Shown: in pieces, positions 420-47,204 of the stretch
How positions within the stretch are numbered: position 1 is the stretch's first letter
Layout: the number at the start of each line of letters is the position of its first letter
DNA from: Prochlorococcus sp. AG-363-O16
GTDB taxonomy: Bacteria; Cyanobacteriota; Cyanobacteriia; PCC-6307; Cyanobiaceae
DNA: 50,272 bases
NCBI GenBank assembly: GCA_003280095.1
Contig: QCGA01000008.1
Location: 1 to 50,272 of the forward strand
Direction of reading: 5' to 3'
Notes under the pieces: generated by a model
Seen by the model: the letters and a program-made list of their open reading frames with translations, nothing else
Database searches by the model: none
Told to the model about the DNA's origin: nothing
Translations under genes and position numbers: made by a program

Positions 420-887
420 ATTTCTAAACCCTTACCTTCCCCTCTTTTTAGTTAACGCTGAGCAATCTGAAGCTCCTCTTTATGTCAACTCAACAAAGAG
501 ACTGGATGAACTGGATCGTCTTCGTCTACCTCCTGGGGTTCGATGACGGTGCTTAGGTAGAGCTTTTAGGTCTAATGATTTGCTTGGTTGGTCCAACCGT
601 TTTGTCTTTTTGGTCTAACCACCTACAGAAATCCATTGCCACTACTGGACGTTATGGAGTTATCAGGCAACTAGCGCCTTTTCTTGTAGAAGTGAATAGG
701 AGCGCTAAAGGTAGATACAAACAAGGATTACTTGCTTGTGGCCAAGCTCACCTCAATTAGACAAGTCTTTGTCCACTGTGGCAACGGTGATTAGAGAAGG
801 AGATCGGATGGTGTCCAGAAGCTGCATGAGGAATTTCGGACCCCGGTATGGGGGCTTAAGAGATCGGCCTATAGCGTTATATGAACT
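420..887. other. Gene-poor stretch between the CobW-type gene and znuB
   Basis: About 470 bp without a convincing gene. It holds a possible 24-codon ORF (482-556), a perfect 13-bp palindrome GGTTGGTCCAACC (586-598) followed by a T-rich run, and TTTGGTCTAACC (609-620), which matches the repeats beside the integrase at 11.7 kb. A 61-codon frame at 575-760 has no recognisable features and is probably chance. A small GC-rich inverted repeat (CCCC/GGGG) lies near 841-854. Confidence 0.4.
482..556 (+). CDS. Possible 24-aa hydrophobic micropeptide
   Basis: ATG at 482 to TAG at 554-556 encodes a peptide with a polar N-terminus (MSTQQRDW), a short hydrophobic core (NWIVFVYLLGF) and an acidic end (DDGA). 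Photosynthetic bacteria have many real membrane micropeptides of this size. No clear Shine-Dalgarno sequence is visible and the core is short for a transmembrane span. It is listed as a possibility only. Confidence 0.2.
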   Translation: MSTQQRDWMNWIVFVYLLGFDDGA

Positions 888-916: not shown

Positions 917-1711
917 TTACTTTGATTTTTCTCTTAAAAAAGGTAATGAAAGTAAGCAAAGAACTCCTATAAGAGGGCCAGGTGAAAGGTTAAAACCAAT
1001 CGAAAGCAAAAAACCTATAAATGTCAATAGAAATCCATACCCTGCAGAACGCACCATTGCAGAATGCAGGCTAGGGGCATGATTTAAGCCAAAAAGAGCT
1101 GGTGCTGAGAGCAAACCTATAACCAAAATGACCCCTACAGCCGCCATCGAACTAACAACAACGAGTGCAGTTACAAAACCAAGTGCTAGTCGAACTGAAG
1201 AAACATTTAACCCACTTGCAGCGGCACCTTCAGGGTCTAAACCTATATAAACTAATTTTTGATAAGAAGTTTTCAATAGCAATAACAATGCAGTTGCAGC
1301 GAGCAAGGATCTAATTAGATCAGCTTGTCCCACTGCTAAGAGGTCACCAAATAAAATAGATTCCAGATCGACTCTTAGGCTTCCTAAAAGCGGTATCAAT
1401 AAAACCCCTAAGCCAAGTGTGCCTGCGAGAACAGTATTAATGACCCCCTCATTGTTTCCTTTACTTTTTGAGGAAAGTCTTTCTGCAACAAGAGCCCCGA
1501 CTAATCCACTAAGCATCCCACCTAATGAAGGATCAACTCCTATAGCCAAAGCTAAGACTATCCCTGGAACTACTGCATGCGAAATTAAATTAGCTTGGAG
1601 AAGGCGACGATGCGTGATCAAGACAGCACCAGTTGCAGGACAAAGCATTCCAACTAAAAGTGCTATCAGGAATGGTAAAACCCACCAATTGGTAAAAAAT
1701 GCTTCTAACAA
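917..1711 (-). CDS. znuB: Zinc ABC transporter permease ZnuB
   Basis: 264 aa, the usual length for ABC-3 family permeases of zinc and manganese importers. The sequence is almost all hydrophobic segments, with the family features SHAVVPG (residues 44-50) and the cytoplasmic ATPase-contact region GLDPEGAAASGLNV (157-170). It forms the inner-membrane channel for Zn2+ delivered by ZnuA and powered by ZnuC. Its gene is on the same strand as znuC but separated from it by zur on the opposite strand. Zinc rather than manganese is inferred from the Zur gene and Zur-type boxes. Confidence 0.88.
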   Translation of the reverse strand: MLEAFFTNWWVLPFLIALLVGMLCPATGAVLITHRRLLQANLISHAVVPGIVLALAIGVDPSLGGMLSGLVGALVAERLSSKSKGNNEGVINTVLAGTLGLGVLLIPLLGSLRVDLESILFGDLLAVGQADLIRSLLAATALLLLLKTSYQKLVYIGLDPEGAAASGLNVSSVRLALGFVTALVVVSSMAAVGVILVIGLLSAPALFGLNHAPSLHSAMVRSAGYGFLLTFIGFLLSIGFNLSPGPLIGVLCLLSLPFLREKSK

Positions 1712-1740
1712 TGCACTAAAAGATTAATCTTGGTAAAGGT

Positions 1741-2172
1741 ATGAGAATCAAACCTCAGAGTATGGTCGATCAAAGCAGTGGTTTGACCACCCGTCAACAA
1801 AATATATTGGAGCAGTTGAATAATTGTGCCGATGAGATCAGCGGCCAACAACTTCATCGGTCCTTGATCGAAGCGTCTTCTAATATGGGGTTGACTACGG
1901 TTTATCGACATCTTCGAGCTCTTCAGCAAAAAGGCTTGGTGCGATGTCGAAACCTTCCTACAGGTGAAGCACTTTACAGCCCTGTGAATAGGGATCATCA
2001 TCATTTGACTTGTGTTGACTGTGGTCAAACAGTTGTTTTGAAGTCCTGTCCAATCAAAAACATTGAATTGCCTAAGACGCACACAAAAAATTTTGAGCTT
2101 TTGTTTCATACACTTGAATTCTTTGGCCTTTGTAAGAATTGTCACCAGCGTCAGAAAGTGGCTGAAAGCTGA
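1741..2172 (+). CDS. zur: Fur-family regulator, zinc type (Zur)
   Basis: 143 aa. A winged helix-turn-helix lies around MGLTTVYRHLRALQQKG (residues 49-65). The Fur-family structural zinc cysteines are present as C91-x2-C94 and C131-x2-C134, with the HHH metal-site region at 86-88. Zur represses zinc-uptake genes when zinc is sufficient. It starts 29 bp from the divergent znuB start and ends 7 bp from the convergent znuC stop, so it lies wholly between two genes of its likely regulon, on the opposite strand. Met1 and Met8 are both possible starts. Zur is preferred over Fur or PerR because of the zinc-transport context. Confidence 0.88.
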   Translation: MRIKPQSMVDQSSGLTTRQQNILEQLNNCADEISGQQLHRSLIEASSNMGLTTVYRHLRALQQKGLVRCRNLPTGEALYSPVNRDHHHLTCVDCGQTVVLKSCPIKNIELPKTHTKNFELLFHTLEFFGLCKNCHQRQKVAES

Positions 2173-2179
2173 ATATTGA

Positions 2180-2875
2180 TTAGCCACAACAGTGGTTACC
2201 CATACTACTAATTGATTGAAGCTTGCTTCTCACCTCTTCTGGAGTTCCAAAGGCCAAAACAGTTCGATCAAGTGTGATTACTTTGTCGTAAGCATTTAAA
2301 GCTTGACCCCAGTCATGGCTACTGACAAATATCGTTAACCCCGCTTCGGCAAGCTGACGAATAATGCTTAGAAACTGCTCCCTGGATGGAGGGTCAAGTG
2401 CCGCACAGGGTTCATCCAAAAGGAAAATAGATGCATTTTGTGCCAGCGTTTTTGCAAGTAAGGCTCTTTGTTGCTGTCCTCCAGACAGTGAATCAAGTCG
2501 TTTCTTAGCTAAAGCAATAAGACCAACCCGTTGAAGTGAAGCTTCTGTCTTGCAACATGATTTATTTGCAGCATTCACTTGACCCAGTGCTACCAATCCT
2601 TCAGTAGTGATAGGGAAATTCCAATTGATAGAGCTTCTTTGAGGCATTAATGAAACTTGACTTCGATTCGCTCCTAAAGGATGCTCATCTAAAAAAATTT
2701 TTCCTTCATGCGGGATGAGCTGACCTTGCAATAGGCGCAGCAAGGTTGATTTTCCTGCTCCATTCGGACCAACAAGAGCTGTAAGCGTTCCTGTTTTCAG
2801 TTCTAAAGAAATGTCCTTTAGAACAGATTCTTTGCCATAGGAAAATGACAGGCTTTTTGCAATGAGATTAGTCAA
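2180..2875 (-). CDS. znuC: Zinc ABC transporter ATP-binding protein ZnuC
   Basis: 231 aa. Walker A GPNGAGKST (residues 36-44), signature LSGGQQQR (130-137), Walker B FLLDEP (151-156) and the H-loop His (about 187) are all intact. It powers Zn2+ import through ZnuB. The protein ends in GNHCCG, a short thiol/His tail that could bind metal; that is speculation. Transcription from the znuC/znuA control region into znuB would pass through zur in antisense. Confidence 0.88.
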   Translation of the reverse strand: MTNLIAKSLSFSYGKESVLKDISLELKTGTLTALVGPNGAGKSTLLRLLQGQLIPHEGKIFLDEHPLGANRSQVSLMPQRSSINWNFPITTEGLVALGQVNAANKSCCKTEASLQRVGLIALAKKRLDSLSGGQQQRALLAKTLAQNASIFLLDEPCAALDPPSREQFLSIIRQLAEAGLTIFVSSHDWGQALNAYDKVITLDRTVLAFGTPEEVRSKLQSISSMGNHCCG

Positions 2876-2883
2876 TCAAGAAT

Positions 2884-2910
2884 GCGTGAATAGCGTGAAT
2901 AGCGTGAAAA
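2884..2910. repeat. Three tandem 9-bp repeats upstream of znuC
   Basis: GCGTGAATA occurs twice in a row (2884-2901) followed by GCGTGAAAA (2902-2910). The array lies between the znuC start (2875) and the Zur-box palindrome (2942-2958), so it falls in the znuC leader or promoter. It could be a binding site or a slippage product. Confidence 0.6.
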
Positions 2911-2941
2911 TCTCACCTTCAGAGACTAGCGCATACTTAAA

Positions 2942-2958
2942 ATGAAAATCGTTTTCAT
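2942..2958. promoter_or_regulatory. Zur box in the divergent znuC/znuA control region
   Basis: ATGAAAATCGTTTTCAT has perfect 7-bp arms (ATGAAAA / TTTTCAT) around a 3-bp centre. It lies between znuC (start 2875, minus) and znuA (start 3027, plus). Size, symmetry and A/T-rich arms match cyanobacterial Zur operators. One site could control both directions. Confidence 0.75.
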
Positions 2959-3026
2959 TTGAACACAATTCTCTCTCGAGTTGGGTCTAAATGCTTATGC
3001 TTCCGTGAAATTATTTTGTTTATTGC

Positions 3027-3950
3027 GTGAGAGTTAGATCCGTTCTTACTAGCTGCTCGGTTGTTTGCAGTCTTTTCTTTGGCTCAAGTCTTGCAAAAGC
3101 TTCTGAGGGTAAACCCGGTGTAGTTGCTTTTGATGGTGTCCTTTGTGATGTTGTGCGGACTATTGCTTCCAAATCAGCTGATGTTTACTGTGTGATTCCA
3201 CCAACTGGAGATCCACACTTTTATCGTCTGAAGCCAAAAGACTTACAAGCTATAGCAAAGGCAGATATTGTTTTTCACAACGGTTTTTATTTAACCCCTT
3301 CAGCCCTAAAACTATCTACAAAAGCTTCTGTACTAGCAGTCGCAGAGAAAGCAATGCCTAGATATAAGGGCAAAGATCCACATGTTTGGCATGATCCAAA
3401 TAATATCTCTGCAATGTCGACGATTATTGAACAAAGCCTCCAAAAGGTGTTGCCCCAATCTGAGGTCTCGGCACTAAACTCACGTACTGAAAGCGCCAAG
3501 GCTGTTCTAAAGGAACTAAGTAACTGGACTTCCGCTCAATTGAGATCGATACCTAATGAAAATCGAGTACTAGTGACTCAACATCGTGCTTTTAGTCATT
3601 TGACTAAAAGATTCAAACTACGTGAACTTCCTGTGATTGACTCTTTCGCAACGGGTGGAACCCTCCGTCCTTCCAGCCTTAGCACGATTGTGTCTGAGGT
3701 GCAAAAGTCTGGTAGCCGGGTCTTGTTCACCGAATCTATTCCAGTAAACAAGACACTTAGGCGCATCAGTAGGGCTACCGGTATTCCGGTAATGAATACG
3801 CCTCTATATCCTGATGGACTTGCACCTGGTGGCCTTTCAACAATTGAGACTGCGACCTCGAATATTTGTGTAATTACAAAAGGTCAGGGAAGCACTTGTG
3901 ATCAAAAAACAGCAGATCAGATTTCTCAAAAATGGGCGGACATTCGTTAG
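3027..3950 (+). CDS. znuA: Zinc ABC transporter substrate-binding protein ZnuA
   Basis: 307 aa from a GTG start, with an N-terminal export signal (charged RVR, then a hydrophobic stretch to SSLAKA, about residue 25). Likely zinc ligands are in the family positions: GDPHFY (H64), DPHVWHD (H119), the QHRAFSH segment (186-191) and a late Asp in LYPDG (263). The His-rich loop seen in many ZnuA proteins is absent here. The downstream outer-membrane-like protein has an acidic/His loop instead. It binds periplasmic Zn2+ and hands it to ZnuB. Confidence 0.88.
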   Translation: MRVRSVLTSCSVVCSLFFGSSLAKASEGKPGVVAFDGVLCDVVRTIASKSADVYCVIPPTGDPHFYRLKPKDLQAIAKADIVFHNGFYLTPSALKLSTKASVLAVAEKAMPRYKGKDPHVWHDPNNISAMSTIIEQSLQKVLPQSEVSALNSRTESAKAVLKELSNWTSAQLRSIPNENRVLVTQHRAFSHLTKRFKLRELPVIDSFATGGTLRPSSLSTIVSEVQKSGSRVLFTESIPVNKTLRRISRATGIPVMNTPLYPDGLAPGGLSTIETATSNICVITKGQGSTCDQKTADQISQKWADIR

Positions 3951-3995
3951 TCGCCTTATCACTTCATTTCCTAACTCAACTACCTTGTCAATTTT

Positions 3996-4961
3996 ATGTC
4001 TACCAATTTTATCAAAAGACTAAATCCTTTGAAAGCCTCATTGCTCTTAGGCGTTGCATTGACGAGTGTTGATGCTTCACTATTACCTCGTATGGGGCAT
4101 GCCCACGGGGGAGGAGGAACTGAGCCTTTAGAAGCAGGTGAATTTAGGTTGACGCCTCAAATAACCGTGGAAGCTCATGGTGGTTTTGAAAACAATATTG
4201 AAGGAAAACCAGAACATTATGGACTTGATGGACTCTTTGGAGGTTTGATGGAATGGGGGTTAGAGAACGGTGGAAAATTCTCTATTGAAGGTGCTTTTGG
4301 ACCTGTCGGGGTATGGGGTGAAGCAGAACATTTTTATGGTGCCGTACATTCTGATCATGACGATCATGACGATGACGACGATCATGAAGAAGAGCATGCT
4401 GAGCACGACACTGACTACAAACGAGAAGATTTCCGTGGTTACTTAAAAGCTACATATGCTCCCAATGATCGCCTTAGTGTGGCAGTAGATACCCAGCCTT
4501 ATATCGTTACAAAAAATCAGGGAGAAGAAAAGAAAGGAACCAAAAATTCAATTGGCGCAAAAGTACTATATGCTTTCGGTGAAGGGGATGTTAATTTCGC
4601 ACTCGGCGATAACTTTAAGGATCTCACTGATGGAGCTTATGTAAGTTTGGAACACCGTCAAGGTTGGGATTCAGTTGGAGAATGGCAAGGTAATTACACA
4701 GATCCTAGAGTAGGAGTCGAATTTAATTACGATTTAATTGCTCTCAAAATAGAAGGTGGGCCTCGTTTCTTTGTCTCATCATCTGAGGCAAGTACAAGCG
4801 AACGTACAGATTTCGCTGGTGAAATTGAGATTGGTCGCCCTGTAGGAGAAAACGCATACGTATTTATTCATTGGCAACCTACCCGTAGTGATAAGGATGG
4901 TTCTGATTGGGGAGAAGGTTGGCAACATCATGTTGGAACAGGAGTAACATTTACTTTCTGA
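3996..4961 (+). CDS. Putative outer-membrane beta-barrel protein with His/Asp-rich metal-binding loop
   Basis: 321 aa. It has an N-terminal signal followed by a mature start with GHAHGGGG (residues 34-41), alternating polar/hydrophobic strands typical of a barrel, and a C-terminal aromatic (VTFTF). Residues 118-140 are nearly all His, Asp and Glu, a strong candidate metal-binding loop. The gene starts 45 bp after znuA with no visible terminator between them, so it is probably co-transcribed under Zur control. A zinc-capturing or zinc-conducting outer-membrane protein is inferred. The sequence does not show the plug domain of TonB-dependent receptors such as ZnuD. Confidence 0.65.
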   Translation: MSTNFIKRLNPLKASLLLGVALTSVDASLLPRMGHAHGGGGTEPLEAGEFRLTPQITVEAHGGFENNIEGKPEHYGLDGLFGGLMEWGLENGGKFSIEGAFGPVGVWGEAEHFYGAVHSDHDDHDDDDDHEEEHAEHDTDYKREDFRGYLKATYAPNDRLSVAVDTQPYIVTKNQGEEKKGTKNSIGAKVLYAFGEGDVNFALGDNFKDLTDGAYVSLEHRQGWDSVGEWQGNYTDPRVGVEFNYDLIALKIEGGPRFFVSSSEASTSERTDFAGEIEIGRPVGENAYVFIHWQPTRSDKDGSDWGEGWQHHVGTGVTFTF

Positions 4962-5218: not shown

Positions 5219-5407
5219 TTATTGAATTTTCAAGGTGCGATTTACTTTTAATCGCGCATTATCCAAGGAGACTTTGCATTCATTACCTTTATTTGCACAC
5301 CAGACATCAAAAGATTGTGCCTGATTGGTTTTCTCTGCTTCGCCTAAGCCAGCATTAGCAGGTGAAGCAAGAGTAAGTAGTAACGGTGCAAGTAGAAGGT
5401 GTCTCAT
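5219..5407 (-). CDS. Small secreted protein, function unknown
   Basis: 62 aa. A clear signal peptide (MRHLLLAPLLLTLASPANA, cleavage after ANA at about residue 19) is followed by a roughly 43-residue mature part with two cysteines (WCANKGNECKV) that could form a disulfide. The mature part is polar, with no membrane span. It lies between the host zinc block and the phage-derived genes on the strand of the latter. Whether it belongs to the host or the island is unclear. Confidence 0.65.
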   Translation of the reverse strand: MRHLLLAPLLLTLASPANAGLGEAEKTNQAQSFDVWCANKGNECKVSLDNARLKVNRTLKIQ

Positions 5408-5477: not shown

Positions 5478-5636
5478 CTAATGGTTTAAATAATCAACCC
5501 CGATGTGCCTCAGGAGTTGCTCGTACTGTCGTAAAGACATGCCTTGAGCAGCAGCTCTGACTGTTCTGACACCTTGGTCAGTTAGGTCTACGGATTTCAT
5601 CCAGTCTTTGTGATCTTGTTGTTCTTTGGTTTTCAT
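5478..5636 (-). CDS. 52-aa island protein, unknown function
   Basis: ATG at 5636 to TAG at 5478-5480. A polar, charged N-terminus (MKTKEQQDHKDW) is followed by a helical, Arg/Gln-rich segment (VRTVRAAAQGMSLRQYEQLL). There is no signal or membrane span. It lies 20 bp after the 58-aa gene on the same strand, so they are probably co-transcribed. The AAQGMSLRQYEQLL segment resembles a small helix-turn-helix, but that is too weak to assign DNA binding. Confidence 0.5.
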   Translation of the reverse strand: MKTKEQQDHKDWMKSVDLTDQGVRTVRAAAQGMSLRQYEQLLRHIGVDYLNH

Positions 5637-5656
5637 TTTTTCTATTTCTCATTTGT

Positions 5657-5833
5657 TTAAACGATCCATTCATCAAGAAGTACACGTGCTTCTTCCTCCC
5701 TTTTGTCTTTTCGTAATTCAGTTAGACGGTTAAAGGCAGATTCAGCCATTTTTCCTTCAGTCCAGAAGCGAATAACCCTTGTATGGCGAGCCGTATCTCG
5801 AGTTGGAGTTATAGGTTTCAATTGGTTCTGCAT
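5657..5833 (-). CDS. 58-aa island protein, unknown function
   Basis: ATG at 5833 to TAA at 5657-5659. The protein is basic at the N-terminus (TPTRDTARHTRVIRFW) and carries a long charged, probably helical C-terminal half (FNRLTELRKDKREEEARVLL). It lies 29 bp after the 272-aa gene and 20 bp before the 52-aa gene. Small charged proteins of this kind are common in phage early regions. No family is recognised. Confidence 0.5.
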   Translation of the reverse strand: MQNQLKPITPTRDTARHTRVIRFWTEGKMAESAFNRLTELRKDKREEEARVLLDEWIV

Positions 5834-5862
5834 TAGTTGTTCGTAGAGAATGGTGGTTTAGG

Positions 5863-6681
5863 TCAAATAGTTATTAGTGATTGAGTTGGCAATGAAGCGA
5901 CATGTGCATGACTGAAGAGTGCATCCTTAGCTGGACTAAGAATTTCAATTAGCTGGGTATCTTTCCAGGCATCTTCAGTGAAGAGTTCTATTGCCAGGTC
6001 TCTTAGTTGTGCAGCTTTATCATACTTAGTTGGTTCAACAACTTCAGTAGTGGAGCTTGAGTCATCCGCAGCAATTTCTAAGTTCGTTGGTTGTAGTGGA
6101 GGTAGAGCTTTAGAAGGATTCTTCGGATACTCCTTTCTGATGTCTTCTATTTCTCTAACTGTTGGATTCGTCTCTTTCTTTTTGGATAGTTGGTGTACCT
6201 TTCTTATTCCTTCCTCGCTCATGCGAGAGAGTTCATATTGTGCTGAGACACCAAGAGATTCAATCCAATCAAGTTGAGCAACAAGAGTCACCTTTGGTTT
6301 CCTTCCTGACCAGGCTTGAAACCTCAGCTTCTCTTTGAATTTCTTAGCCTGCACCAACATGGTTGCTTGTTTACGAGACAGACCATTCCTTTCAAGAAAC
6401 TTCTGGAGTTGAGACTTAAGTCTTTTGGATTTCCAGCGGTACTGGTGGTCTTCGTTTTTATCTATCTCATCTGCAATTTCATAGACAACATCTACAAGCT
6501 TTATCGCAGCCCATCCATGCTTCTGAGCTAAACCGAGTTGTCCATCTCTCAAAGCATCAAGAGCATTTACCGCATCAGTTCCAAGTTCTTCAATTAAACG
6601 TTGAGTGGTTTTTGAATACCTCAGATCCAGTGTTTCATCTTCGTTCCATGGGGTTAGGGCTTGTTCGATTGAGTAAGTCAT
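5863..6681 (-). CDS. 272-aa island protein, unknown; possible DNA- or protein-binding factor
   Basis: The ATG at 6681 (MTYSIEQALTPW) is preferred over an upstream start at 6750, because the longer form would translate through a perfect 12-bp palindrome at 6701-6712. The protein is soluble, highly charged and mainly helical. The middle segment GLSRKQATMLVQAKKFKEKL could be a helix-turn-helix. The C-terminal third has a low-complexity linker (DDSSSTTEVVEP) before a last helical domain. It follows the polymerase gene after a 376-bp structured gap. In T7-like phages this position holds early or DNA-metabolism genes, but no such family is recognisable. Confidence 0.6.
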   Translation of the reverse strand: MTYSIEQALTPWNEDETLDLRYSKTTQRLIEELGTDAVNALDALRDGQLGLAQKHGWAAIKLVDVVYEIADEIDKNEDHQYRWKSKRLKSQLQKFLERNGLSRKQATMLVQAKKFKEKLRFQAWSGRKPKVTLVAQLDWIESLGVSAQYELSRMSEEGIRKVHQLSKKKETNPTVREIEDIRKEYPKNPSKALPPLQPTNLEIAADDSSSTTEVVEPTKYDKAAQLRDLAIELFTEDAWKDTQLIEILSPAKDALFSHAHVASLPTQSLITI

Positions 6682-6700
6682 ATTCCATTTATTTGTTTTG

Positions 6701-6712
6701 TTCCACGTGGAA
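6701..6712. promoter_or_regulatory. Perfect 12-bp palindrome before the 272-aa gene (operator candidate)
   Basis: TTCCACGTGGAA is fully self-complementary and ends 19 bp upstream of the preferred ATG at 6681, where a repressor or activator would act. No second copy was noticed in the window. Confidence 0.4.
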
Positions 6713-6778
6713 TTAATTACCTCAAACCGCAGTCCGTAACTCGTCTGCAACGTACGGCTAGGTAACCATTATTTGTCC

Positions 6779-6847
6779 TAGATGTATTAAGGAAGTTCGC
6801 CTGAGTGCAACGAAGGCTCCGCCTTACTCAGCCTGCTTCAACATCTA
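6779..6847 (-). ncRNA. Candidate structured RNA: 69-nt nested hairpin
   Basis: Four paired segments nest in register: TAGATGT (6779-6785) with ACATCTA (6841-6847), GAAG (6792-6795) with CTTC (6836-6839), CTGAGT (6801-6806) with ACTCAG (6826-6831), and AAGGC (6813-6817) with GCCTT (6821-6825). Both strands could form it; the minus strand is the coding direction of the island. It may be a processed leader, an RNase III site or a small RNA. No known RNA family is recognised. Confidence 0.4.
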
Positions 6848-7032
6848 AAACGGTTTGTCCTTAGAGAGGTTTGTATAGCCACTGTTCATCGTGTCTATTA
6901 ACAGGGTTGAAATTAAGGATCTACCTCAGCAGCCTTTTCATTCACTGAGTTCCTTGGGCTTCAACCAACCAGATCACGAAGTAATCCCGAGGGATGTTCT
7001 AGTGACCCATTTCTTTTGAGTCGATTCCAGGC

Positions 7033-7052
7033 GACTGTTCTCTATAACAGTC
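7033..7052 (-). other. Hairpin immediately after the RNA polymerase stop codon
   Basis: GACTGTT (7033-7039) and AACAGTC (7046-7052) form a perfect 7-bp stem with a 6-nt loop, 5 nt past the stop codon. No U-run follows on the minus strand, so it looks more like an RNA-processing or stabilising hairpin, as at T7 RNase III sites, than an intrinsic terminator. Confidence 0.5.
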
Positions 7053-7057
7053 CGGAG

Positions 7058-9502
7058 TTAGTTGAACATGTAGGAAGAATCCAGTACTGACAAGAGATTT
7101 CCAGAACCTTGATCCAACCTAGGTAACTGCCTCTCAGTGACTCCAAGATCGTCTGCAAGACGTGCCAAAGGGTCACCAGAACAAACGTGAATGAATCCTC
7201 TCTTCACTCGTTCTAAGGCTCTATCCATGTCATTCGGGAGCACCTTCAGACAGTCATGAATAAGCGAAATAGGTTCTCTCCAATCCTTAAAGGATGACTT
7301 CAGAAGGCAAGCGTCGTAGCAGTGAACGACAGCTGGAGCGAAAGCATTCTTCATCTTCTTCAATGCAACCTTTTCACTGTTACCAACCCAGATAGTTGTG
7401 TCTGGAAAGTGATGGCAGGTAATGACCTTCTTCTCCGGTTGGTAGGCAATTAAATGGATGACGTCATTGTTTGGAGTAGTCCATTTAAAGTTTTGATGCG
7501 ACTGGTTTTTAGACCACACATTGAATAGCTTCTGCAGCCAATCAAGGGACTCAAAAGCAGCCGGAAATACTTCACGACAGGCATCTCGTAAGGCATCTGT
7601 AATGGTGTTGATAGCTTGCTCATCAAGCGTTCCTGGATACAAACCTTCCTTCCTGTAGAACTTCTTGATGTCCTTTCTATTGGTCAGAAGCGAGGAGTTA
7701 TAGATCCTTGTCATGAGAATCGCTTTACCTAGTTTTCTATAGGTGAGATATGGGATTAACCACTTAGTTTCATCAGCTTTCTCGAGCCGCTCACGAGCAG
7801 CTCTGAGCACCTCCAGGTAGGCATCTAGAGGGGCTGAGTCATGTCTTTCTACTGGGAATAAGTTTGCATATCTCATCCCTTTCTGGTCTCTCCTAAAGGC
7901 ACTCAGGAGCTGTAAGCCGGAGCTTGTGGAGTCCACTCCAATAGGTACATCCCAGAATGGTTTATCCCTTGTCAGAACCACCCGGTTCCACTCCAAAGCC
8001 AGCTGAAGAAACTGCCAAGGAGTGTCTGCTTGATTCTCCCAGTGAGCAGTCATACGAATCGGGTCTTCAGCAATAGCTTTAAGTAACTCCTTGTTTTCGT
8101 ACGTCCAATTGACTCGGTCTTGATGTGGAAGGGTGCTGCCTAATCGAGCTGAACCAACAGCTTGCGCAGCCCAATACTCTCCTCGGTTATCAAGCTTGCA
8201 TCCATCAGCAAAGGTAAGCAGCGCTTTCTCATAGTCACTTGCTTGAGGCTGGAGTAAGGGTTGCTGGCTATACATCCTGCCTCGATAGTCACAAGACCAA
8301 CTCAGATAGAAACGAGGCTCTGTCTGAAATTTTTTAGCAAGAGCGATTGCATTTCTAGAACGAATACTTTTCTTTAAAGCTTCAGCATGAGCTTCATGAA
8401 GAGCAGCTCTGTCCTTGTTCCACTCCTTTCTTTTGGGAGCGTCTTTAGGTAGAGCAGCAATGTCTTCTGGCATTCCCTGCTTTAAGCAAGGGTTATCCAC
8501 TACAGCTCCAAATGATGCAATAGGGATCCCTTTCTCTAAGCATTCAGTAGCAGTTTCAAGGACATCGGGATCGATGTTCCAAGCTGTCCTCTGCATCGTG
8601 TTTAGTAAAGAGATTGCGTCTTGACCAAACACTGAGTCGTAGATGTATTTACGACATAAAGGTCTTTGATTACGAAGCCATTGCTGGTAGTAACCACCTG
8701 TGCAATTCAACCGGGAAGGTGCCTGCACGAACTCCCAGTCTCTTGGTAGGTCTAATAAAGCCCAGTCTTTAAAACTTCTGCCTTCGAGATGGTTTTGGAA
8801 GATAAGGATTTGAGCTTTTATTTCATCAGCAAGGTCAAGGAAGTTAGGCGAGTTGTTCCTGCTTACAAAGCTTCTTTTGATAGTCAGGAGTCCTTGGTTC
8901 TTAGCGACTTCAAGGATGAATAACCCGATTCTGCTTATTAGTTCTATTGACCATGCAGGAAAAAGATCATCATGTGTCCAACCTTCCGCAATAAGCAGCT
9001 TTTCAACTACTTGCTTGGCACCATAACGTTTGAAATGAGGATTAGAACCAGGTGTGTTTAGTTGTTTGTGTTGAGCTGATACAACGTAATCAGGAGCCTT
9101 TCGGTTGTAGTAGGTAACACGTAATTCATCTTCAATTGTCCTGCCTATTTTCTTAGCTGCTTCAAAGGTTCTGGGCTTATCAAACTCACAGACTCCAAAG
9201 CAATCAAGGATTGATTTAAGAGAGACATCAGCAACGTTGAGAGGGGGTATGTAATTAAAAATGTCTTGAACGTCTTGCCAGCAAACAGCAATGTTCTTAG
9301 CGGTAGCTTTACCTCTAGCTGGTTTCTCAGTTGCAGTAACTAGAGCATCGGCAAAGGGTTCAACAAACTTGGCTACAAACTGCCTGCCGAAACTGGTCTT
9401 TGAAAAATATCCCCTTTGCTGGGATTTAAGTAGAGCTTCTCTGTGTTGTTCTTTAGCCGCACGACTGGCATCTAATTCATTTTGTATTTGTCTAGTGGTC
9501 AT
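7058..9502 (-). CDS. T7-type single-subunit DNA-dependent RNA polymerase
   Basis: 814 aa from ATG 9502; a TTG at 9514 would add four residues. Length is close to T7 RNAP (883). Landmarks in order are DYRGRMY (about 405-411), motif A DSTSSGLQLLSAFRRD with catalytic Asp524, motif B RKLGKAILMTRIYNSS with Arg589, Lys593 and Tyr601, and motif C LIHD with His749/Asp750. The C-terminal foot LLSVLDSSYMFN resembles the T7 end in FAFA. Catalytic residues are therefore intact. Two departures are Asn602 where T7-type enzymes have Gly640, and HDC instead of HDS in motif C. The enzyme transcribes phage genes from its own promoters. It sits downstream of an integrase, as in P-SSP7-like cyanophages. Confidence 0.95.
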   Translation of the reverse strand: MTTRQIQNELDASRAAKEQHREALLKSQQRGYFSKTSFGRQFVAKFVEPFADALVTATEKPARGKATAKNIAVCWQDVQDIFNYIPPLNVADVSLKSILDCFGVCEFDKPRTFEAAKKIGRTIEDELRVTYYNRKAPDYVVSAQHKQLNTPGSNPHFKRYGAKQVVEKLLIAEGWTHDDLFPAWSIELISRIGLFILEVAKNQGLLTIKRSFVSRNNSPNFLDLADEIKAQILIFQNHLEGRSFKDWALLDLPRDWEFVQAPSRLNCTGGYYQQWLRNQRPLCRKYIYDSVFGQDAISLLNTMQRTAWNIDPDVLETATECLEKGIPIASFGAVVDNPCLKQGMPEDIAALPKDAPKRKEWNKDRAALHEAHAEALKKSIRSRNAIALAKKFQTEPRFYLSWSCDYRGRMYSQQPLLQPQASDYEKALLTFADGCKLDNRGEYWAAQAVGSARLGSTLPHQDRVNWTYENKELLKAIAEDPIRMTAHWENQADTPWQFLQLALEWNRVVLTRDKPFWDVPIGVDSTSSGLQLLSAFRRDQKGMRYANLFPVERHDSAPLDAYLEVLRAARERLEKADETKWLIPYLTYRKLGKAILMTRIYNSSLLTNRKDIKKFYRKEGLYPGTLDEQAINTITDALRDACREVFPAAFESLDWLQKLFNVWSKNQSHQNFKWTTPNNDVIHLIAYQPEKKVITCHHFPDTTIWVGNSEKVALKKMKNAFAPAVVHCYDACLLKSSFKDWREPISLIHDCLKVLPNDMDRALERVKRGFIHVCSGDPLARLADDLGVTERQLPRLDQGSGNLLSVLDSSYMFN

Positions 9503-9520
9503 AAGAAATTTCAAAGTAGA

Positions 9521-9536
9521 ACTGCATCCATGCAGT
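9521..9536. repeat. Inverted repeat just upstream of the RNA polymerase start
   Basis: ACTGCAT and ATGCAGT form perfect 7-bp arms around CC. It lies 19 bp upstream of the polymerase ATG at 9502, close enough to mask the ribosome-binding region or serve as an operator. Confidence 0.45.
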
Positions 9537-9545
9537 GGTGAGTGA

Positions 9546-9559
9546 GCTGATTGATCAGC
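9546..9559. repeat. Second inverted repeat upstream of the RNA polymerase gene
   Basis: GCTGAT and ATCAGC are perfect 6-bp arms around TG. It sits between the terminator-like hairpin (9563-9586) and the start-proximal repeat (9521-9536), making three in a row. Confidence 0.45.
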
Positions 9560-9560
9560 A

Positions 9561-9586
9561 GGAAAAAGGCTGCCTCTTACAGCCTT
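9561..9586 (-). terminator. Terminator or attenuator between the 64-aa gene and the RNA polymerase gene
   Basis: On the minus strand AAGGCTG and CAGCCTT form a 7-bp stem with a 7-nt loop, followed by TTTCC (five Ts in a row with the stem end). It starts 13 nt after the 64-aa stop and lies 58 bp before the polymerase ATG. It has the shape of an intrinsic terminator that would limit read-through from the integrase side. Confidence 0.65.
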
Positions 9587-9599
9587 GGGTCTTGCTTAG

Positions 9600-9794
9600 T
9601 TAGAACAAGAATCCGTAAGCGGATGTGGCAGCCAATAGAGCAACCAGGGTGTTTCGCTCCTCACGTAATGCTTTGGAGAGCTTTGTCTGCGTTGAAAGCT
9701 TGCGCTCTCTATCAGCTATCAGCTCTTCGGCAGCGGTAATGATGGCCTCCTTAGTTGATTTGGTGTTGATGATGGTGCTCATAGATGAATCCAT
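9600..9794 (-). CDS. 64-aa island protein with coiled-coil-like middle and hydrophobic tail
   Basis: Starts at ATG 9794 (or the in-frame ATG at 9782). Residues about 14-48 are charged and helical (KEAIITAAEELIADRERKL), and the last 15 residues (LVALLAATSAYGFLF) are hydrophobic and could anchor it in a membrane. It lies between integrase and RNA polymerase and is followed by a terminator-like hairpin. Small proteins at this place in T7-like phages often act on the host, but no family is recognised. Confidence 0.5.
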   Translation of the reverse strand: MDSSMSTIINTKSTKEAIITAAEELIADRERKLSTQTKLSKALREERNTLVALLAATSAYGFLF

Positions 9795-10071
9795 AAGGGG
9801 ATGAAGGCTGAACCCAGAAAGGATTCAGCAATAGCCAGGTCTGCGACGAAGCGAGCATGCACAGCGGATCCTGTGTCTGGCTGGGATTGAGTTGTAAATC
9901 TGTGCGAGCTAACTAACGGAGCTTCGACTCAACGTTTACGTAGCTTGCGCATGAACACCCTAACCGAAGTAAACGCATTAGTCGTGTACTTAGTCATATA
10001 ACTTAACAACTAAGAAGAAGAATCTGTCACTCTTCGTTTAAACACTGGCTTTCTTTATCTTCTTTTTTCAG
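9795..10071 (-). other. Noncoding gap between integrase and the 64-aa gene
   Basis: 277 bp. It holds inverted CGTTTAC / GTAAACG segments near 9942-10000 and a GCTGAA / TTCAGC stem just before the 64-aa start. A 22-codon basic frame on the minus strand (MTKYTTNAFTSVRV, ending KLRKR) starts near 9996 but has no ribosome-binding site. No promoter can be assigned with confidence. Confidence 0.35.
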
Positions 10072-11658
10072 CTAATCTGCAAATAAGTCGACTGTTAGTG
10101 ACTGCTTGGCTTTTTTAGCGTAATTAATATTAGTAATCTCTTGTGCTCTTTCTTTAACATCAATACGTTCATAATGCTTGGTCAACATCTGTACGCTATG
10201 GCCACATATCCGAGAAAGTAAAAAGATATCCATACCAGCAAGCAGTTGATTCTCGATGTATGTGCTTCTCATCGAATAGATGGTGTAGTTCCTATCGGAA
10301 AACTTATGACCAGCTAATTGACCTTCAATCCCTTTAAGCATCCGCCACCAGCTTGAGGTGAAAGTCGCATACTTGTATGGCTCATATCCGTTATGAGGAT
10401 TACCAAAGATCAGAGTGTTTGGAGTTATTTGCACATCCATACCCCACTTCTCGATGTAGTCCATTTGATACTCCTTAAACCGCTTGAATACAGAGCCAAG
10501 GTTGGAAGGAATCTCACGTTGATCGCCAGTCTTAGAGGTTTTAACCATCACGTAAGCAACCAGTCGTTCCTCTCTGCCTAAATGATTAGGGTTGTCAGCC
10601 CATTCACCGGGAACCGTTTCTTTATCAAAGTCATCAGGTATTACTTCAATACCTTCCATCTCTAGTTCTTGGATCTCTTCCATCATTTTTGTTTGACTGA
10701 TTCTTCCTACGTCTTCGATAACTACATCTCGCCATCTCAGGTTGAGTAATTCATTGGGACGAGCACCCGTGTTCTTCATGATCAAAGTGAAGTGCCAGAA
10801 CAGATACCTCCAATAACCAACACTTGGCCTTGGATGTTTCTGGCCTTGCTTCACATAGACCAACCTGATCCACTTATTAATTGTTTCCCAGTCTTTTTTG
10901 TTGATAGCTGGATTGGCATCTAGATCTTGTTGTTTGATTTTTACCTTTGGAACAAGATCCTTAAGCATTGCAACCTCAGGTGAAATCAGACGTTTTTTGA
11001 TGAGGTGCTTATCTACAAAAGCTTTAATTAGTCCCGCTTCTTTATTCCTGGTCAACTTGGTACACCACTTCCTGAAGTGTGGATAGCGTTCAAAAGTGTC
11101 GTCTTTGATCTGCCCCGTATGGGTAACACCTTCTTCGTTGAAATAGTTTTTGAGATGAACCCCAAGTACCTGTAGATATTCTTTGACCGATGTCTCTAGG
11201 AGTAAGCCAGCCTCTACCCGCTCCATCTGGACGGTTAAGAAGTCATCAATAGCGTCATTTACTGGTATCCCTTTTTTCTTGCGACCGGAGTAAACAGGGA
11301 CTCCACTGTTCTTTCGTTGAGAGTAGTGGTGAGTTCTAGCAATTCTGTTCTGACCACCTGTCTCTACATCTAACTCCGCAGCATCGGCTGAACGATGAGG
11401 TGGCAAAGGATCCTGCAATACTTTTGGCCTTTCCTTCTTTATCGGAGGAGGAGGAGTGGCTTTACGAAACTCTCCATAGATATCAAGTGCTTGAGCAGCA
11501 GCTTCAGCTTCAGATTCAGCACCCTGAATCTTCTGCGTTCGGTATCGCTTTTCACCTGGAATTACCTCTCGGTAGTACCAGACATTTGGAAGGCGTTTGT
11601 AGTTAAGAATTTGCGCTCGTCCATCAAGCACGTCCTTCTTACTGAGAATGGCAGGCAT
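10072..11658 (-). CDS. int: Tyrosine recombinase / phage integrase
   Basis: 528 aa, longer than the usual 350-450, because of an N-terminal DNA-binding part with a Pro-rich linker (residues 68-90). The core-binding domain lies around 130-260 and the catalytic domain around 280-515. Catalytic residues are Arg300 (NTGARPNELL), Lys376 (KTSKTGDQRE), Arg464 in YSMR, His487 (CGHS) and nucleophile Tyr496 (HYERID). The usual first His of HxxR is Tyr461, an accepted variant. It catalyses site-specific integration and excision. An inverted-repeat site begins 10 bp upstream of its ATG, as expected for an attachment site next to int. Confidence 0.92.
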   Translation of the reverse strand: MPAILSKKDVLDGRAQILNYKRLPNVWYYREVIPGEKRYRTQKIQGAESEAEAAAQALDIYGEFRKATPPPPIKKERPKVLQDPLPPHRSADAAELDVETGGQNRIARTHHYSQRKNSGVPVYSGRKKKGIPVNDAIDDFLTVQMERVEAGLLLETSVKEYLQVLGVHLKNYFNEEGVTHTGQIKDDTFERYPHFRKWCTKLTRNKEAGLIKAFVDKHLIKKRLISPEVAMLKDLVPKVKIKQQDLDANPAINKKDWETINKWIRLVYVKQGQKHPRPSVGYWRYLFWHFTLIMKNTGARPNELLNLRWRDVVIEDVGRISQTKMMEEIQELEMEGIEVIPDDFDKETVPGEWADNPNHLGREERLVAYVMVKTSKTGDQREIPSNLGSVFKRFKEYQMDYIEKWGMDVQITPNTLIFGNPHNGYEPYKYATFTSSWWRMLKGIEGQLAGHKFSDRNYTIYSMRSTYIENQLLAGMDIFLLSRICGHSVQMLTKHYERIDVKERAQEITNINYAKKAKQSLTVDLFAD

Positions 11659-11668
11659 TTTGGACTGA

Positions 11669-11709
11669 AAGGTTAGACCAAAGGTTAGACCAACAGCCTA
11701 GTCTAACCT
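11669..11709. other. Candidate attachment site: repeated and inverted integrase-type motifs
   Basis: AAGGTTAGACCA occurs twice in tandem (11669-11680, 11681-11692). The second copy faces an inverted copy: AGGTTAGACCA (11682-11692), a 6-bp spacer ACAGCC, then the reverse complement of AGGTTAGACTA (11699-11709). Ten of the 11 positions in the two arms match. This is the geometry of a tyrosine-recombinase core site plus an extra arm site. It lies between the integrase start and host gene ychF, where one end of the element should be. No tRNA is present here. Confidence 0.5.
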
Positions 11710-11736: not shown

Positions 11737-12828
11737 TCATACGTTGAACAGGAACTCCATGACATCACCTTCATTAACAATATATTCCTTACCTTCACTT
11801 CTCAACCAACCCCTATTACGCGCCTCAACCAATGAACCTGCTTCAATTAACTTCTCATATGAAATTGTTTGAGCTCGAATAAAACCTCTCTCAAAATCTG
11901 TATGAATTACTCCTGCCGCTTCCGGAGCAGTCATACCTTCCTGAATAGTCCATGCTCTAGTTTCCTTCTCTCCAGTTGTAAAATATGTACGTAATCCAAG
12001 AAGATGGTAAGTAACTTTTATTAGGCTCTCAAGCCCAGCCTCATTAACTCCTAAACCCTCTAAATAATCTTTCCTTTCAACTTCTCCTAATTCCACAAGT
12101 TCAGCTTCAACTTGTGCAGAAACACGAACAATCTCAGCACCCTCTTTCCCTGCCAAATCTTGTATTTTCTCACTATAGTAATTGCCGCTAGAAAGATCAT
12201 CTTCACATAGATTAGTTGCATAAATTACGGGCTTAAAAGTAAGAAGTCCTAAAGGCTTGATTGTTTTAATCTCCTCTAAAGATAATCTCATATTTCTTAC
12301 AGAACCACCGTTCTCTAAATAGGATTGTATCTTTGAAAGAAGTAAGTCCTCATTCTCTGCGTCCTTATTAGTTCGTAATTGTTTCTTTAATTTCTCCCTA
12401 CGCTTTTCTATTTGATTTAGGTCTGAAAGGCCTAATTCAAGATTAATTATTTCAACATCTCTAATAGGATTAACAGATCCTGAAACATGTATTACATCTT
12501 CATTTTCAAAGCACCTTACAACATGAACAATCGCATCAACTTCTCTAATATTTGCTAAGAATTTATTTCCCAAACCCTCTCCTTGACTAGCTCCCTTTAC
12601 CAAACCAGCAATATCTACAAACTCTATACGTGTAGGAATAATTTGCTTACTATTACTTAGATTACTAAGTTTCTCCAACCGACAATCGGGAACAGAAACA
12701 GAACCAACATTTGGCTCAATTGTGCAAAAAGGAAAATTCGCTGCTTGAGCCTGTGCATTTGCTACTAAGGCATTGAACAATGTGGATTTTCCGACATTAG
12801 GTAGTCCAACAATTCCTGCTTTAAGCAT
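11737..12828 (-). CDS. ychF: Ribosome-binding NTPase YchF (Obg-like ATPase)
   Basis: 363 aa, the standard YchF length. G1 GLPNVGKST (residues 8-16) and G3 DIAGLVKGA are clear. The NKxD motif is replaced by ATNLCEDD, as expected for the ATP-preferring YchF group. A coiled-coil insert follows (IEKRREKLKKQL), and the C-terminal TGS-like domain contains RAWTIQEGMTAPEAAGVIH and ends EGDVMEFLFNV. It is a conserved translation-associated and stress-linked protein. It is the first clear host gene to the right of the island. Confidence 0.95.
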   Translation of the reverse strand: MLKAGIVGLPNVGKSTLFNALVANAQAQAANFPFCTIEPNVGSVSVPDCRLEKLSNLSNSKQIIPTRIEFVDIAGLVKGASQGEGLGNKFLANIREVDAIVHVVRCFENEDVIHVSGSVNPIRDVEIINLELGLSDLNQIEKRREKLKKQLRTNKDAENEDLLLSKIQSYLENGGSVRNMRLSLEEIKTIKPLGLLTFKPVIYATNLCEDDLSSGNYYSEKIQDLAGKEGAEIVRVSAQVEAELVELGEVERKDYLEGLGVNEAGLESLIKVTYHLLGLRTYFTTGEKETRAWTIQEGMTAPEAAGVIHTDFERGFIRAQTISYEKLIEAGSLVEARNRGWLRSEGKEYIVNEGDVMEFLFNV

Positions 12829-47131: not shown

Positions 47132-47204
47132 TGGAGCCAAGCGGACTCGAACCGCTGACCCCCTGCATGCCATGCAGGTGCTCTACCAGCTGAGCTATGG
47201 CCCC
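47132..47204 (-). tRNA. trnA-GGC: tRNA-Ala (anticodon GGC)
   Basis: 73 nt. Acceptor GGGGCCA pairs with TGGCTCC (one G-U), the D arm is GCTC...GAGC, anticodon stem CCTGC/GCAGG has loop ATGGCAT (anticodon GGC), and the T arm is AGCGG-TTCGAGT-CCGCT. The discriminator is A; CCA is not encoded. It reads GCC/GCU alanine codons. No integrated element is seen beside it. Confidence 0.97.

Follow-up and report, generated by a model that had tools for sequence, protein, structure and literature searches.

Prochlorococcus sp. AG-363-O16 carries genes for a T7-type RNA polymerase (RNAP) and a tyrosine integrase (INT) on contig QCGA01000008.1 (assembly GCA_003280095.1), which raises the question of what kind of element keeps such an enzyme in a host chromosome. 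Single-subunit RNAPs are known in T7-like phages, in organelles and in certain linear plasmids. The stretch analysed, hereafter the window, is the entire 50,272-bp contig of a picocyanobacterial genome that is 64% complete. Six open reading frames (ORFs) at 5478-11709, all on the minus strand and bounded by Prochlorococcus genes, make up the island. As a preliminary description of the sequence had stated, these are the RNAP, the integrase and four small or unknown ORFs, and no virion, packaging or phage replication genes were found among them in the ORF list or by Pfam and phrog scans. We consider the island to be, probably, the integrase-proximal part of a site-specific integrative element that has a conserved skeleton and an RNAP for its own transcription. 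The best reading of its relatives is a previously undescribed family of integrative elements in Prochlorococcus and Synechococcus.

The 818-aa polymerase (7058-9514) matches Pfam RNA_pol (E 1.6e-36) and phrog_414 'RNA polymerase' (E 1e-139 across residues 7-817). Across the alignment of 11 clade members, the window's among them, residues D528, R593, K597, Y605, H753 and D754 show no variation. The protein combines the RNA_pol fold with the catalytic Asp, Lys, Tyr and His-Asp of T7-like single-subunit enzymes, and the first account of a full-length RNAP with intact catalytic residues was correct. Relatives in viral and genome collections were recovered with alignment queries; single-sequence scans found nothing. 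The clade (support 100/100) consists of the window RNAP, nine others that come from Prochlorococcus and Synechococcus genomes and one from an IMG/VR contig, at identities of 36-58%. Phage RNAPs, as well as phage-type RNAPs from the same hosts, are placed outside it in the tree, and identity to the best-covered phage RNAPs among 50,697 phage records does not exceed 28%. That one contig was the only clade member found among 2.9 million IMG/VR contigs, in a scan with two peptide patterns that may miss a few members. RNAP matches occur in 36 of 400 family genomes, counting the window's own as well as broken copies and RNAPs of phage type. Full-length RNAPs are present in at least ten other genomes, and broken copies are frequent. 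The named relatives of the island come from single-cell genomes of Prochlorococcus and from strains of Synechococcus, with Synechococcus sp. UW140 as one carrier; G021 and G022 differ too little for a usable dN/dS. A monophyletic group of RNAPs that resides in integrative elements, belongs to the most abundant phototrophs and is almost without viral counterpart in the collections searched would represent a new setting for this enzyme, and the clade would be a source of new promoter specificities.

The neighbourhoods of these relatives share a skeleton in which the 3' end of a protein gene is followed by INT, RNAP, cargo in some cases, a structured RNA, P295, P58 and often P52. In the window INT (10072-11658) lies directly behind the intact host gene. 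P64 (64 aa, 9600-9794) stands between INT and RNAP and has homologues near INT in G030, G204 and G290. The structured RNA (6766-7048, minus strand) and P295 (295 aa, 5863-6750, likely start 6681) come next; P58 (58 aa, 5657-5833) comes after P295 in nearly every element, and the distal P52 (52 aa, 5478-5636) is present in scars too. None of P52, P58, P295 and P64 has a clear family in Pfam and phrog scans. Skeleton genes are contiguous in the compact members (window, G021/G022, G056), and the larger ones (G088, G291, G348, G075) hold extra genes between RNAP and P295. Among this cargo, judged by eye or family scan, are secreted proteins, a PD-(D/E)XK-like nuclease and, in G088, a restriction-helicase protein. 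Reading the ORFs of the att-bounded G088 and G291 elements, and scanning part of them, turned up no recognisable virion genes. The set INT-RNAP-P295-P58-P52 recurs in other genera, with RNAPs at 36-58% identity. In the presence/absence comparison proposed at the outset, the gene set recurs in relatives, and elsewhere there are empty sites or scars. The RNAP is an optional module, because elements such as that of G290 have INT, P295, P58 and P52 without it.

The 528-aa integrase matches Pfam Phage_integrase (E 2.5e-7) and phrog_1 (E 2e-18). R300, K376, R464, H487 and Y496 are present and the box-II His position is Tyr461; the catalytic set, initially called complete, is so only if Tyr is allowed there. 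INT matches occur in 32 of 197 related genomes, the window's own counted, and there is no match in the 50,697 phage records, P-SSP7 included. Two 12-nt direct repeats, each GGTCTAACCTTT, lie just upstream (11668-11691, minus strand) and are likely integrase arm-binding sites; a single inverted copy is at 11701-11709. Paired short repeats stand upstream of most INT genes read and recur near the distal end of the G088 element. They look like arm sites of the integrase. On IMG/VR contig L184 (1050-10386), a member of this integrase family has homologues of virion proteins behind it (996 aa, phrog_19560, E 1e-53).

The insertion site is the 3' end of a protein gene that stays intact: ychF in the window (11737-12828, minus strand) and rpsD in G088 and G291. 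In the closed chromosomes of these two relatives the integrase begins about 100 bp behind a complete rpsD. In the empty sites of G309, G331 and G005 rpsD is followed directly by another gene, and this gene is found at the far side of the element in G088 (22.7 kb off) and G291 (14.7 kb off). Both ends of the G088 element, at a distance of 22.5 kb, carry a perfect 23-bp att repeat of the rpsD 3' end. G291 has, 13.7 kb away, 21 nt that match the rpsD end of the empty site at 90% identity. The two elements measure 22.5 kb and 13.7 kb. Direct att repeats together with empty sites are found for G088 and G291, and for the window there are scars in relatives only. In G001 and G012 these scars lie behind ychF and join the opening ~20 integrase codons to the P52 end, with an identical junction in both. 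Since closed genomes offer complete elements along with att and empty sites, excision, transfer and response to phage are directly testable.

Between RNAP and P295 there is a conserved structured RNA that the preliminary description had overlooked (modelled core 6875-7038). It was found at 19 places in the element loci searched, and most loci of this type have it ahead of P295. MAFFT with RNAalifold gave a poor consensus; the helices were found by a column-pair scan and then tested on other loci. Three helices were defined on seven sequences, where pairing holds in 93.9% of cells and sliding lowers this to 47% or less; of the 19 pairs, 12 are changed on both sides. A covariance model built from these seven also locates the RNA upstream of P295, at E 1e-6 or better, in loci outside the model set (G231 contig 23, G091, G293, G075, G348, G372, G088, G291, G248 and G290). 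Some of these have no RNAP beside P295, and in G394 the RNA is behind the RNAP. On all 19 sequences 18 of 19 pairs covary, with changes on both sides, and 93.5% of cells are paired (at most 42% when slid), in an alignment that was fitted to the model and is thus biased towards the structure. Rfam 15 at the gathering threshold has no match to this RNA, giving only Yfr11 elsewhere in L147, and an Rfam scan of the window island returned nothing of note. Common to elements with and without RNAP, the RNA is a marker for the whole family. P295 is modelled as an all-helical protein with HTH-like segments (pLDDT 68, three sequences); it is a probable DNA-binding protein of ParB-like or Rep-like type. 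It has no match in the 50,697 phage records. The RNA-P295 pair of G291 has a ParA gene immediately upstream.

Gene content, target sites, the att repeats of relatives, the conserved catalytic residues and the RNA are established by the sequences; the mechanism is a proposal built on them. We propose that the tyrosine integrase, which inserts the element at the 3' end of a conserved protein gene and leaves that gene intact, would also excise it. After activation, P295 as a ParB- or Rep-like protein may maintain or copy the excised form, with the structured RNA as its leader. The private RNAP would read the genes of the element from promoters of its own, independently of the host RNAP. Such an enzyme could be useful once a phage shuts down the host RNAP, or on entry into a new cell. 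The analysis supports the earlier notion that an integrated mobile element has here retained a transcription enzyme of its own.

Several observations count against this proposal. Repeated T7-type promoters were searched for inside each element and gave no convincing family in the window; self-transcription is a role that we infer for the enzyme. Many INT- or P295-bearing elements lack the RNAP, which is thus not essential to mobility, and several copies of the element are broken. No repeat of the ychF 3' end that could serve as the distal att was found left of P52 in the window contig. A fold search with P295 gave no match below E 0.1, with weak ParB-like and DUF3102 resemblances.

A phage satellite is a possible, if doubtful, explanation. 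A T7-like cyanophage would activate the element, whose own RNAP would take the place of the phage enzyme or compete with it; helper capsids would package the element. An integrase with a compact gene set is also what characterises the PICMI satellites of Vibrio, small integrative elements that likewise sit beside a protein gene (fis), with few core genes and no capsid-remodelling genes (PMC10803314). PICMIs differ in encoding excision and replication functions and in depending on a helper phage that has been shown, and the abstract mentions no single-subunit RNAP (PMC10803314). Some RNAP relatives (G231, G394 and the IMG/VR locus L143) carry a small protein with a T7-like scaffold C-terminal domain, whose phage matches are nearly all Synechococcus podoviruses and pelagiphages, and one IMG/VR contig of this INT family has virion-protein homologues. 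The phage-scaffold-like domain in these relatives hints at a satellite role. Support for such a role, or for one in phage interference, is indirect. However, the domain is absent from the window genome and occurs in other cyanobacterial proteins (a secreted protein in G088, a TPR protein in G041), so it is not capsid-specific; we had taken it as strong evidence for a satellite and downgraded it once it appeared in such host-type proteins. There is also no packaging gene, and the RNAP clade has just the one contig found in the viral collection. It is speculation, and unlikely as a whole, that the elements are satellites of T7-like cyanophages in which the RNAP would keep the element transcribed after the phage turns off the host RNAP, and in which the RNA, as a new structured class, and P295 would control a switch from silent island to replicating circle. 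We know of no phage satellite with its own single-subunit RNAP.

It is improbable that the element is a domesticated or selfish remnant, immobile and with a polymerase that serves a host function or none. Scars stand alone in G001, G012 and others, broken RNAPs are frequent and the window shows no distal att repeat, all of which would fit such a remnant. Against this, the window RNAP and INT are full length with intact catalytic residues, RNAPs in at least ten other genomes are also full length, and distinct insertion sites and empty sites show that relatives are mobile.

The preliminary description had linked the island to P-SSP7-like phages and read it as either a stripped prophage or a satellite-type element. 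The P-SSP7 link is not supported. Its order of integrase then RNAP does occur in P-SSP7; in Syn5 the RNAP comes first, and the proteins are not close. The Autographiviridae cyanophages P-SSP7, Syn5 and P60 share with the island the domains and catalytic residues of a single-subunit RNAP, and some encode an integrase. The island RNAP is, in contrast, 25-28% identical to theirs, and the proposed comparison with cyanopodovirus RNAPs placed it outside their clade. Unlike these phages, the island has no replication, packaging or virion genes, and its integrase has no detectable phage relative; with an RNAP not nested among phage RNAPs, it does not have the make-up of an Autographiviridae prophage. 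A stripped prophage is unlikely because the gene set recurs in many genera with RNAPs only 36-58% identical. A decayed temperate podovirus, in which a once complete prophage would have shed the genes for replication and virions, is very improbable: RNAP and integrase co-occur in P-SSP7 and Syn5, and some genomes of the family (G026, G438) have RNAPs that nest among those of cyanophages, but the island clade is separate from cyanophages, its integrase and P295 have no phage homologues, the same reduced gene set was kept over deep divergence and the att-bounded G088 and G291 elements show no recognised virion gene.

The integrative elements we favour were also compared with those described in these hosts. 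Tycheposons of Prochlorococcus have a tyrosine recombinase and nutrient-uptake cargo and lie at tRNA genes, as reported at second hand (PMC10872708). The first two features and the hosts are shared. Tycheposons as described there are bordered by tRNA genes, whereas insertion here is at the 3' ends of protein genes (PMC10872708). No tRNA was found in 26 INT/RNAP loci, and the sole tRNA of the window is at 47132; on this ground the elements are distinct from tycheposons as that account presents them. A second picocyanobacterial element is linked to tRNA-Phe or tRNA-Cys, often with a small serine recombinase (PMC10187409). It resembles ours in having a distinct tyrosine integrase in Prochlorococcus and Synechococcus islands and differs, by description, in its tRNA linkage.

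The left border of the island, first placed at 5478, is probably wrong: the contig starts at window base 1, and no distal end was found on it. Beyond P52 lies a 62-aa signal-peptide protein (sp62, 5219-5407, minus strand), a truncated relative of secreted proteins beside other INT elements and a probable cargo remnant. It is followed by a block of znuB, a Fur-type (zur-like) regulator, znuC, znuA and a porin-like gene (917-4961), also probable cargo. This block is 94% identical to a same-bordered block elsewhere in G012 (C1) and about 80% identical to one in G001, away from ychF, and in G012 the sequence of window 770-830 lies immediately next to the P52-sp62 scar. These borders lead us to see the zinc genes as probable cargo of an element that probably extends beyond the contig end; the block is perhaps a mobile zinc-uptake block. 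Two arm-like GGTYYAACC sites at 590-620 (plus strand), oriented opposite to the INT side, are a tentative distal-end sequence. More than one znuB is present in G001 and G020.

Three scars with integrase codons 1-20 fused to P52 lie in two genomes (L121 7560-8200; L124 8150-8680 and 5600-6400) and are perhaps a non-autonomous miniature derivative. The ychF 3' end is duplicated over 35 codons in G009 (L122 9410-10501, 12213-12317) and over about 20 nt in G014 (L123, ~180 nt behind ychF), which suggests that ychF may be the target of other elements too. A Prochlorococcus INT element (L047 2316-5819) encodes a 1167-aa TPR protein with two phage-scaffold-like domains beside an exonuclease-like protein. 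Clusters of GC-rich short repeats lie just past P52 in G204 (L112 2100-3088) and in G056, and are possibly end or origin sequences.

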